IMG/VR virus record: IMGVR_UViG_3300006617_000247
Coordinates: 1-28,229 of that record
Length of the DNA stretch: 28,229 nt
Source of the DNA: a virus
Direction: 5' to 3' (one strand)
The notes under the pieces were generated by a model that was not told the origin of the DNA, ran no database searches, and worked only from the letters and a program-made list of their open reading frames with translations. Each line of letters begins with the position of its first letter. Within the stretch, counting starts at the first letter, position 1. Shown in pieces: positions 7,011-25,647 of the stretch. Both the position numbers and the translations under genes were made by a program.

Positions 7011-7752
7011 CTCGCTCTAACCGTTCAATGATTTCTAGATTATCTGCTTTCCATTCTTCAGATGTTTTAGCCATTTGTCCTAGACTTGGTAACTCTAATG
7101 CTCCACTCATTATTGCTTTCTGAGTTTGGTCAATTTCCATATCCGCATACTTACCTTGAGTCTCATTGTTTCTGTACTCATGCGTTCTATAGCCTATGTT
7201 ACCTGTCATTGTTCCATGTGCTTGTTGCCCTGGTCCAAAGAACATTTGTAATGCATATCTACTTTGATCACTTTCATTGTATTCTACTTTGTGATATGCA
7301 TTCATTGTTGGATCATTTTCATCTGTTAAAAAGAATGTACCTGAGTTACAATGTATATCATATGTGTGTTCATGATTTTCTAAGTTGTGTAAATCTTGCG
7401 TTGTATAGTAAACAAATTTAGGTGCTGGGTTTTGTTCATTCCAGTCCTCATCAGGATTTAGATAAATGGTTAATACTCCATAACATCTTTCCCTATGCAA
7501 AGGTAACCAACTACCAGGAACAAACCTTTGTAAGTACATGTGATGATGTCTCATCATCTTTTTGTTTTTGTATGTAGGTAAGTTTTCGTTATAATAAAGT
7601 TCATCTAATACTGCATCGTGATGAACGGAATCTAAGTACAAAAAGAATCTACCAAAGTTTCTATGTTTCCATACGATATCATCTCGCATATAGGAGTCCT
7701 GCAAAGTTTTTAGCAGTTCTGGACTTAGAAAATTATGGTATTGCTTGAACAT
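7003..7752 (-). CDS. 2OG-Fe(II) oxygenase-like protein with HxE motif (2)
   Basis: A 249-aa protein resembling the 2OG-Fe(II) oxygenases. The core has H86 and E88 (PLHRERCYG) where HxD is usual, then the strand VLTIYLN, a distal H154 (YHKVEY) and R165 (SRYALQMFF). HxE is known in some active members but may also mark altered metal binding. About 70 residues follow the core, ending in a charged helix. It is the first gene after the TATAAATA motif at 7771-7778 and overlaps the second oxygenase gene by 8 nt. The pair is not closely similar, so they may act on different substrates or as partners. Confidence 0.75.
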   Translation of the reverse strand: MFKQYHNFLSPELLKTLQDSYMRDDIVWKHRNFGRFFLYLDSVHHDAVLDELYYNENLPTYKNKKMMRHHHMYLQRFVPGSWLPLHRERCYGVLTIYLNPDEDWNEQNPAPKFVYYTTQDLHNLENHEHTYDIHCNSGTFFLTDENDPTMNAYHKVEYNESDQSRYALQMFFGPGQQAHGTMTGNIGYRTHEYRNNETQGKYADMEIDQTQKAIMSGALELPSLGQMAKTSEEWKADNLEIIERLERDG

Positions 7753-23865: not shown

Positions 23866-24377
23866 TATGCAACCTCCTTACATTCTGATTTAAGTTGAGG
23901 ATGATCTGCATCAAACCAACCGTTTTTAGTTTTAAACTGACATGCATAGTCAGACCTAGTATTATTAACACCAGGTGTCCATTGCTCAGCCTTGCCTATG
24001 ATAGCACGGTTCCAATGGCTATATTCAGGGCTGGGAGTGTGATGGGTACGACATTTCCACCCGTCCTTATAAAAGAACTCTACAGGTGTTTCCCAAGGCT
24101 CACAAATTGGGCCTTTACCGTCGCCATTTTTACCAAGATCACGAATCTCCCAGTCCAGGATATATTCTTCAAAATATTCTGACTTGGGCTCAATAAGCAA
24201 TGACAGAGTAGGAATACCTTTCTGTGCAATCTTATTGATTTGAGCAGTAGTCAAATCAGTAACAAAATAAGTGTTACCACCTTTGAACTTCCAATGTTGA
24301 GGACATTCGCCCTCACCTTCCCAATTATGGGCACCGTAGTTTTCACGATGTTGTGTTTGGATAACTAAAGTTTGCAT
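23865..24377 (-). CDS. Unknown phage protein with conserved aromatic N-terminus
   Basis: A 170-aa protein starting MQTLVIQTQHRENYGAH, followed by GEGECPQHWKFKGGNTYFV, a pattern I associate with a family of uncharacterised phage proteins. It is rich in Trp, His, Cys and Pro (ICEPWETPVEFF, KCRTHHTPSPEYSHWN). The Cys/His content could bind metal but no spaced motif is clear. It is linked by TAATG junctions to both neighbours. The function is unknown. Confidence 0.75.
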   Translation of the reverse strand: MQTLVIQTQHRENYGAHNWEGEGECPQHWKFKGGNTYFVTDLTTAQINKIAQKGIPTLSLLIEPKSEYFEEYILDWEIRDLGKNGDGKGPICEPWETPVEFFYKDGWKCRTHHTPSPEYSHWNRAIIGKAEQWTPGVNNTRSDYACQFKTKNGWFDADHPQLKSECKEVA

Positions 24378-24748
24378 TAAACGTTCCTCACTACGTTTTC
24401 GTTATCAAAATTGATAATGTTGCCTTTCTCATCTCTACCTGGAGAAGTTGAAGCATGTATAATACTATCAAAATCTCTAACATCAATACCAGTTCTGTTT
24501 AAAACACTATCAATAACTCTGTCTCTCATCACTTTCATGTGAGGAACATTTATGCTCTCAGGATACTCAGAACCTTCTGGATGATTAATGTTCTCTTCGT
24601 GTCCATACCACATTTCTTCTAAACTGGTAAGTTGGATATTAACACTATCATCGTCGTTTGCGTTGTAGCAAGTAAGTGACCCAATATGGTAACCTGGTAC
24701 AGATACAATTTTGTCCTTGCTTTGGTTCTTAGTATTCAAATTCTGCAT
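24377..24748 (-). CDS. Unknown protein, first gene of the early run
   Basis: A 123-aa protein starting MQNLNTKNQSKDKIV, Asn- and Asp-rich, with no recognised domain. It is the first gene after the consensus sigma70 promoter at 24784-24811, with a TAGGAG ribosome binding site 7 nt before the ATG and a leader of about 30 nt. Being first behind a strong promoter, it should be made early and abundantly in infection, which often marks host-takeover proteins; that is inference. Its stop overlaps the next ATG (TAATG). Confidence 0.75.
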   Translation of the reverse strand: MQNLNTKNQSKDKIVSVPGYHIGSLTCYNANDDDSVNIQLTSLEEMWYGHEENINHPEGSEYPESINVPHMKVMRDRVIDSVLNRTGIDVRDFDSIIHASTSPGRDEKGNIINFDNENVVRNV

Positions 24749-24783
24749 AAAAAACTCCTACCTTTTTTATTTGTTATACTACT

Positions 24784-24811
24784 ATTATACAGAAATATCC
24801 GGTTTTGTCAA
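24784..24811 (-). promoter_or_regulatory. Consensus sigma70-type promoter of the long leftward run
   Basis: On the minus strand TTGACA (24806-24811), a 16-bp spacer and TATAAT (24784-24789), both perfect. An inverted repeat, CGGTT (24800-24804) and AACCG (24810-24814), overlaps the -35 and could be an operator. Transcription would start near 24777, about 30 nt before the 123-aa gene. Confidence 0.8.
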
Positions 24812-24830
24812 CCGTTTTTACCACAAAATA

Positions 24831-24854
24831 TGCATTTAACCACCTTTAAATGCA
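24831..24854. repeat. 9-bp inverted repeat TGCATTTAA / TTAAATGCA
   Basis: TGCATTTAA at 24831-24839 is matched by its complement TTAAATGCA at 24846-24854, with a 6-nt centre. It lies between the leftward promoter and the possible rightward extended -10, so it is well placed for a regulator acting on both. It may also form a hairpin in RNA. Confidence 0.55.
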
Positions 24855-24860
24855 GGTTTT

Positions 24861-24869
24861 TGCTATAAT
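24861..24869 (+). promoter_or_regulatory. Extended -10 promoter candidate, rightward
   Basis: TGCTATAAT on the plus strand is a TGn-TATAAT extended -10; a second TATAAT follows at 24872-24877. No good -35 is seen, which extended -10 promoters can do without. It would give the 44-aa gene a leader of about 145 nt. Confidence 0.4.
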
Positions 24870-24900
24870 TCTATAATCTTTTAATGATGTTTTAATGATT

Positions 24901-24908
24901 GATAAATA
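24901..24908 (+). promoter_or_regulatory. Late-type motif GATAAATA, rightward
   Basis: GATAAATA on the plus strand, the only rightward copy placed upstream of a gene in this window. It would serve the 44-aa gene at 25020 with a leader of about 105 nt that contains the GTAACA array. Confidence 0.4.
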
Positions 24909-24913
24909 AAATT

Positions 24914-24952
24914 GTAACAAAACTGTAACATTAGTGTTACTAACTCGTAACA
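24914..24952. repeat. GTAACA site array with palindrome
   Basis: GTAACA occurs at 24914-24919, 24925-24930 and 24947-24952, and as its complement TGTTAC at 24935-24940. The start-to-start spacings are 11, 10 and 12 bp, close to one DNA turn each, so all sites face the same side. The two middle copies form a perfect palindrome, GTAACA-TTAG-TGTTAC. This looks like an operator for a repressor or activator. Confidence 0.55.
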
Positions 24953-25019
24953 ATCTCCAATAGGGGTAGGTTACATTTCACTAAGTTATAGACTGCGTTA
25001 TCATAATAAGGAGAATGAA

Positions 25020-25154
25020 ATGGCGAAATCCATAGGAATAGTAGCCAGTGCAACTCATCGTTTCGCATTGGATACTTGGGAAAAATTAGATACTTTAATG
25101 AAGTATGGTAGAATCACTAATGTGGCTAAGATAGCCGGAGTTAGTAGTTCATAA
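25020..25154 (+). CDS. 44-aa protein with partial HTH-like end
   Basis: A rightward gene of 44 codons starting MAKSIGIVASATHRF, with an AAGGAG ribosome binding site (spacing about 6 nt) and an intrinsic terminator 5 nt after the stop. The C-terminal ITNVAKIAGVSSS resembles the first helix and turn of a LacI-type helix-turn-helix (IKDVAKLAGVSxS) but ends where the recognition helix would begin. It could be a complete miniprotein or a truncated regulator. The operator-like array just upstream makes self-regulation plausible. The opposite strand is free of convincing genes here. Confidence 0.65.
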   Translation: MAKSIGIVASATHRFALDTWEKLDTLMKYGRITNVAKIAGVSSS

Positions 25155-25159
25155 AAAAA

Positions 25160-25180
25160 GGGAGCAAATGCTCCCTTTTT
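25160..25180. terminator. Bidirectional intrinsic terminator
   Basis: GGGAGC (25160-25165) pairs with GCTCCC (25170-25175) around a 4-nt centre. A run of five T follows on the plus strand, and seven A on the other side give T residues for the minus strand. It ends both the rightward 44-aa gene and the leftward exported-protein gene, whose stop is at 25188. Confidence 0.85.
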
Positions 25181-25187
25181 CTTAGGC

Positions 25188-25568
25188 TTAGCCTTCCCAG
25201 CCATCGTCATTTTCGTCATACACACCGTCGCCGTTTGTATCACATGCACGTTGCCACCACACCATAGTAAAACTCAAACCTTCACTCCATGGAACATATG
25301 AATCACACCATGCATGTGAACCGACTACCATGGCGTCATCTGTTCCGTTATCTACTTCAACATAATCTCGTCGACTAGTTTCAGGAAACTGTTTGAACTG
25401 AATTGTTTTACCATTACTATAAGTTTGTTTTCTGTACAACAAACCTTTAGTAACCATAATTTTTTCACCCTCTGTGAGAGTGAGTGTTGACCCGTCATCA
25501 TAATTAATGACAGTTTGTGCTGATACACTAAAAGAAAATAGTGCTAAAGTTAGTAGTAAGTATCTCAT
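25188..25568 (-). CDS. Exported protein with calcium-loop-like end
   Basis: A 126-aa protein from the ATG at 25568 (MRYLLLTLALFSFSVSAQT), which has an AAGGAG ribosome binding site. The frame extends to an ATG at 25616 without one. Residues 1-17 form a clear Sec signal peptide with a likely SVSA/QT cleavage. The mature part has two cysteines that may form a disulfide, an SHAWCDSYVPW segment, and a C-terminal DTNGDGVYDENDDGW resembling an EF-hand or dockerin calcium loop. An envelope or secreted role during late infection is likely; the exact function is unknown. A GATAAATA motif lies upstream. Confidence 0.78.
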   Translation of the reverse strand: MRYLLLTLALFSFSVSAQTVINYDDGSTLTLTEGEKIMVTKGLLYRKQTYSNGKTIQFKQFPETSRRDYVEVDNGTDDAMVVGSHAWCDSYVPWSEGLSFTMVWWQRACDTNGDGVYDENDDGWEG

Positions 25569-25639
25569 GTCTGTCTCCTTTGATACAATATAATGTACAC
25601 CATATAGGTTGCACATTAGATTGGTCTTACTACAAAATA

Positions 25640-25647
25640 TATTTATC
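25640..25647 (-). promoter_or_regulatory. Late-type promoter motif GATAAATA
   Basis: GATAAATA on the minus strand between the terminator of the acidic repeat-protein gene and the exported-protein gene, 71 nt before the chosen ATG (25568). Confidence 0.55.

Follow-up and report, generated by a model that had tools for sequence, protein, structure and literature searches.

The rightward half of a divergent control region in viral DNA appears to be a late-gene leader in which an operator of the OmpR/PhoB type, placed at the transcription start site, would be joined to a structured 5′ RNA; this reading is held with about even confidence. The region lies in a stretch of 28,229 nucleotides (the window), which belongs to a 41,243-base viral record, and its features are collected in Table 1. 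An earlier note on this DNA had seen a divergent regulatory switch here rather than a simple spacer. Its regulatory character was borne out, and the phasing of the GTAACA repeats is conserved; the single divergent switch was not, as the array belongs with the late gene on the right. Because promoter, repeats and RNA leader are kept together across many marine phages, the region is taken as real gene-control machinery.

Table 1. Features of the control region and of the small rightward unit (window coordinates).
Feature	Position	Strand	Description
Leftward sigma-70 promoter	24784..24811	-	TTGACA-16-TATAAT, 12/12 match; for the 123-aa gene 24377-24748
T4-type late promoter (predicted)	24901..24908	+	GATAAATA; rightward unit; predicted start near 24914
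Units 1 and 2	24913..24930	+	TGTAACAAAACTGTAACA; direct repeat of 11 bp, resembling a Pho box and lying at the predicted start of transcription
Unit 3	24935..24941	+	TGTTACT; third of the phased sites, of inverted type; shares bases with the P1 5′ strand
Unit 4	24946..24952	+	CGTAACA; GTAAC is the 5′ strand of P2
Structured leader RNA	24931..24984	+	fold of the window sequence plus covariation
P1	24931-24936 / 24979-24984	+	TTAGTG / CACTAA
P2	24947-24951 / 24970-24974	+	GTAAC / GTTAC
P3	24955-24958 / 24963-24966	+	CTCC / GGGG, loop AATA
Shine-Dalgarno sequence	25008..25013	+	AAGGAG; conserved in the leader alignment
44-aa ORF	25020..25154	+	start is that of the exported-protein genes; rest is a microprotein homologue
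Terminator-like hairpin	25155..25180	+	AAAAAGGGAGC-AAAT-GCTCCCTTTTT; -16.3 kcal/mol, z -5.1; ends the small unit

According to the preferred reading, the rightward half would form a discrete late transcription unit, in which a phage-modified RNA polymerase would start from GATAAATA near position 24914, which falls within the first GTAACA. The 11-bp-phased TGTNACA units, within the first 40 nt transcribed, would serve as a DNA operator for a response regulator of the OmpR/PhoB family, most likely the PhoB of the host, and the strongly conserved pair TGTAACA-n4-TGTAACA would be its main part. Since this operator covers the start site and is not followed by a sigma-70 -10, it would be more likely to restrain than to activate transcription. 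The transcript would fold into P1-P2-P3 just upstream of the Shine-Dalgarno sequence, and the leader may control the translation or stability of the small ORF.

The four GTAACA sites reported before are all present and 10-12 bp apart, the direct copies beginning at 24914, 24925 and 24947, but the third is inverted and reads TGTTAC (24935-24940). The array is far beyond chance: four such sites within 46 bp were found in 0 of 20,000 Markov copies of the region and in 0 of 300 copies of the whole window, and a direct 11-bp GTAACA pair in 0.005% of the Markov region copies. The search for further arrays proposed in the earlier note revealed that the TGTAACA-n4-TGTAACA pair is unique in the 41-kb record, with one mismatch allowed, and no second full element was detected in any of the 36 contigs checked (up to 156 kb). 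As there is one element per contig, there is no phage regulon for comparison.

The earlier note had named loss of the spacing in relatives as a result that would refute it; the 11-bp spacing is kept. The array and its spacing were recovered by a pattern scan in 76 contigs, most of them with one layout, that is, GATAAATA, TGTAACA-n4-TGTAACA at the predicted start, a three-helix RNA leader, a Shine-Dalgarno sequence and a small ORF. As the letters selected in pattern-derived sets cannot support claims of invariance, a search with the 44-aa protein was added to avoid this bias, and ATAAATA and the exact 11-bp pair were present upstream in all 21 loci that match the start of the protein. Nearly all of the 45 contigs returned by a further search with the start-codon sequence were known from the earlier searches; the array is present in the three additional ones as well, in one case truncated at the contig end.

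The relatives compared are metagenomic contig fragments, and no near relative of the window phage was found in the isolated-phage collection. The clamp loader gene of the window, in which gene direction is mostly leftward, is closest to that of jumbo phages, for example Pseudomonas PA5oct with 56% identity, and next to that of Sinorhizobium phage Phosso, and the same PA5oct-like group is closest to the capsid proteins of array-bearing relatives. By their capsids, the array carriers comprise at least two phage lineages, one PA5oct-like and the other T4-like, near Sinorhizobium phiN3 and Methylophilales Melnitz; members of the T4-like lineage have short leaders with phased units and no hairpin. 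An ordinary strong late promoter followed by a stabilising 5′ hairpin, with the GTAACA repeats inherited and devoid of any regulatory role, would account for a simple unit made of a T4-type late promoter and a terminator, but units 1 and 2 keep their sequence and spacing across two phage lineages while the flanks diverge, and this explanation is judged quite improbable.

Outside these leaders, a scan of bacterial genomes for four phased units gave 12 scattered matches. Among the matches listed from a three-unit scan of viral sequences, many adjoin tRNA-like sequence in other viruses, so that the motif alone is not specific. Tandem TGTAACA arrays with 11-bp spacing were observed in many other viral contigs (L144-L222), often beside tRNA-like sequence among the matches listed; here they probably represent the arm sites of an integrase, adjoining att cores, and the motif thus recurs in unrelated settings. 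In L091, a neighbouring gene (7106-7164, minus strand) has a two-unit leader, GTAACA-n4-TGTTACA, with a simple hairpin resembling the element.

The rightward GATAAATA claimed in the earlier note is in place and is the sole constant promoter element upstream of the array. T4-type late promoters, which serve a gp55/gp33/gp45-dependent polymerase late in infection, have a TATAAATA-like octamer at -10 and need no -35, and GATAAATA corresponds to this in its sequence, so that it is predicted to be such a promoter. Between ATAAATA and unit 1 there are 4 nt in 35 of the 46 leaders, the others having 2-6 nt, and the base before ATAAATA is G in 29 of the 46. ATAAATA was part of the search pattern, yet it also occurs in every one of the protein-found loci. 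Other copies of NATAAATA in the window lie 15-70 nt upstream of genes on the same strand, one of these being a virion structural gene. Other -10-like sequence takes the place of the octamer in L189 and L199, where the array is retained, and this again would place the start at unit 1. A copy of GATAAATA was also noticed at 25647, just upstream of a 142-aa ORF on the minus strand (25188-25616) with an apparent signal peptide and no family match.

Single occurrence per contig and the combination of phased repeats, promoter and hairpin would also suit the iterons of a replication origin that is primed by the late transcript; T4 oriE has been described as having iterons. A replication origin at this site is nevertheless very unlikely: a Shine-Dalgarno sequence and an ORF come next in nearly all relatives, the neighbours differ among phages, the window has no GC-skew turn, and in some long leaders the repeats are reduced to two clear units.

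The perfect leftward sigma-70 promoter described earlier was found (24811 to 24784, Table 1), as were the dyad over its -35 (CGGTT-TTGTC-AACCG, 24800-24814), the 9-bp inverted repeat formed by TGCATTTAA (24831-24839) and TTAAATGCA (24846-24854), and the rightward extended -10 TGCTATAAT (24861-24869). Neither the dyad nor the inverted repeat is conserved; the gene order is common only to L006, where the inverted repeat is degenerate. A sigma-70 promoter matching at 11-12 of 12 positions precedes the 123-aa gene in all 21 of its relatives (Markov control mean, 8.5), and the array and small ORF adjoin that gene in only one of the 21, L006. Therefore, the leftward promoter is a unit of its own, a neighbour that lies outside the rightward element.

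The array could be the operator of a phage-encoded repressor, or of the 44-aa protein itself, within a divergent early/late switch. It does lie between divergent units, leftward sigma-70 promoters with at least 11 of 12 matches are found upstream of it in 21 of 45 distinct leaders (control, 0.15%), and a single array in each contig would fit a regulator dedicated to it. However, these promoters serve different genes in different phages, the array is about 100 bp away from the leftward -35, and the same array is present in at least two phage lineages, so that such a switch is considered improbable; the leftward promoters near the element are a recurrent neighbourhood and not a coupled switch. 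Binding of the array by the 44-aa protein is likewise unlikely from its distribution, as its microprotein core occurs in many array-less contigs and arrays also precede exported proteins.

The fold of the leader RNA is shown by covariation. Three helices were seen in an alignment of 36 long leaders, in which compensatory changes keep them paired, and the leader of the window folds likewise. P2 and P3 together are paired in 91% of the cells, compared to 32-43% with slid partners, and have 64 double changes against 21 in shuffles. When partners were shuffled among 22 representatives under 75% identity, P1, P2 and P3 gave z values of -5.4 to -6.0, pairing with the own partner being better than in any of 5000 permutations; relatedness inflates covariation tests of this kind, and the result still holds with the slid-partner control and the representative set. 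The G-U pairs in the helices favour the plus strand. A hairpin between units 2 and 3 and an outer helix, P0, were possible in single folds and were rejected, as they gave no covariation signal. The leader had no match at the gathering threshold in ten loci with the 4227 covariance models of Rfam, and only chance-level matches turned up elsewhere within 24600-25250 at E<=10; comparison of the leader DNA with isolated phages also gave chance matches only. As a conserved structured element of marine phages, the leader RNA is new.

The strong covariation of P1-P3 also agrees with a role of the TGTNACA units in RNA only, as near-palindromic pairing arms of a 5′ leader that acts on stability or translation, with no DNA-binding protein. 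The units are able to pair mutually, units 1 and 2 of L269-L271 are complementary despite their differing sequence, and L009 retains the complementarity of units 2 and 3 at a different spacing. Against this, the short-leader phages L081, L098, L189 and L199 keep the 11-nt phasing, at unit 3 as well, without the P2-P3 hairpin, units 1 and 2 show no covariation in the main set, and an 11-nt periodicity serves no obvious purpose in single-stranded RNA. Such an account is regarded as the less probable one, though it has perhaps one chance in a few.

The preferred reading, with a DNA operator, is supported by the match of units 1 and 2 to PhoB sites. The 59 sites found for E. coli PhoB by ChIP-seq (PMC10294691) were made into a matrix, and with this matrix, which comes from another species than the host and may not be that of the host, units 1 and 2 ranked first among 56,424 windows (18.5 bits; next, 12.0). 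They make up two half-sites 11 bp apart, as in a Pho box, and their score exceeds the 90th percentile of the E. coli sites that went into the matrix. When related loci with 2.9 million positions were scanned, 20 of the 22 matches of at least 16 bits fell within the element, 13 of these 20 being exact pairs selected by pattern. Among diverged leaders, some changes in the core keep the PhoB score in L269/L270 (P=0.001, one lineage) and in L262 (P=0.02), and the score does not discriminate in L129, L267 and L271. In E. coli, both PhoB and ArcA bind direct repeats of 18 bp that are spaced by 11 bp, those of ArcA often with 3-5 units (PMC10294691, PMC3798270). Use of the host PhoB by marine phages is known experimentally for cyanophages, in a paper that also cautions against relying on predicted Pho boxes in phage genomes (PMC10976474).

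No similarity to a sigma-70 -10 was found at +9, +20 or +31 behind the box across 46 leaders, so that the -10 which a PhoB-activated promoter needs about 9 bp downstream of its box is lacking. As they also lie downstream of the promoter, units 1 and 2 were not filed as a PhoB-activated promoter or classical activator box. It also speaks against the preferred reading that unit 3 is inverted, and that units 3 and 4 drift together with the RNA stems in long leaders. An OmpR/PhoB-type operator is the likeliest reading for units 1 and 2, with no membership of the PhoB-activated promoters claimed.

The unit of some relatives codes for an exported protein (about 100-115 aa) and then for an overlapping microprotein of 22-27 aa, and in the window and most relatives the first 9 codons of the exported-protein gene are fused to the microprotein. 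The 44-aa ORF looks like a collapsed fusion of the two, and its sequence reads as an internal deletion. Codons 2, 4, 6-9 and 12 of the small ORF show no synonymous change in 17 distinct sequences, and later codons vary; therefore, its start is also under nucleotide-level constraint. Hairpins similar to the terminator-like one are present 3′ of the ORF in many relatives. Isolated phages had nothing similar to the 44-aa ORF, to the microprotein or to the exported proteins. In PHROGs, neither the 44-aa ORF nor the microproteins had a match, and those of the exported proteins were insignificant; Pfam gave nothing above cut-off for the 44-aa ORF and exported proteins. The model of the exported protein (pLDDT 79), all-beta in its mature part, had no convincing PDB match. 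A microprotein of 22-30 aa (about MKKxWKKFHKLMKSGRINKVVKL) was also observed at or overlapping the stop codons of many unrelated marine phage genes (L281-L320), whose endings resemble a NifU/IscU-like protein, a 2OG-Fe oxygenase-like protein and others; these loci have no GTAACA array, and neither the families nor the isolated phages searched gave a match to their microprotein.

More tentatively, and with well under an even chance, the whole could be a composite phosphate-responsive control, in which the host PhoB acts at the start of a late promoter and a previously undescribed leader RNA sets translation, common to two lineages of phages of marine heterotrophs and travelling with an exported protein and a microprotein. 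If this were true, a late phage gene would be tied to host phosphate status in heterotrophic marine bacteria; host control through PhoB has already been shown for some cyanophage genes.

Among known systems, phage cis-regulatory RNAs such as the glutamine riboswitch of phage Melnitz (PMC9004378) also place a structured leader before a small gene in marine T4-related phages, whereas the present leader has a different structure and matches no Rfam family. Two tandem glutamine riboswitches (RF01739) were seen in a relative of the window phage (L008, 3796-3904). T4-type late promoters share the GATAAATA octamer immediately upstream of the start, but here a phased array and a structured leader come next, once per contig. 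ArcA, of the OmpR family, has a TGTTA-like half-site. Its sites are similar in their 3-5 direct repeats at 11 bp, usually repressing (PMC3798270), although the TGTCACA/TGACACA variants of the units in relatives fit PhoB better. The cyanobacterial Pho box differs in its sequence (PyTTAAPyPyT/A). The Pho boxes of E. coli pstS and phoA and of cyanophage P-SSM2 and S-PM2d genes lie at the -35 of a sigma-70 promoter, whereas the site here is downstream of the promoter, over the predicted late start; like them, it is an 18-bp pair of TGT-N-AY half-sites, 11 bp apart and oriented towards the gene.
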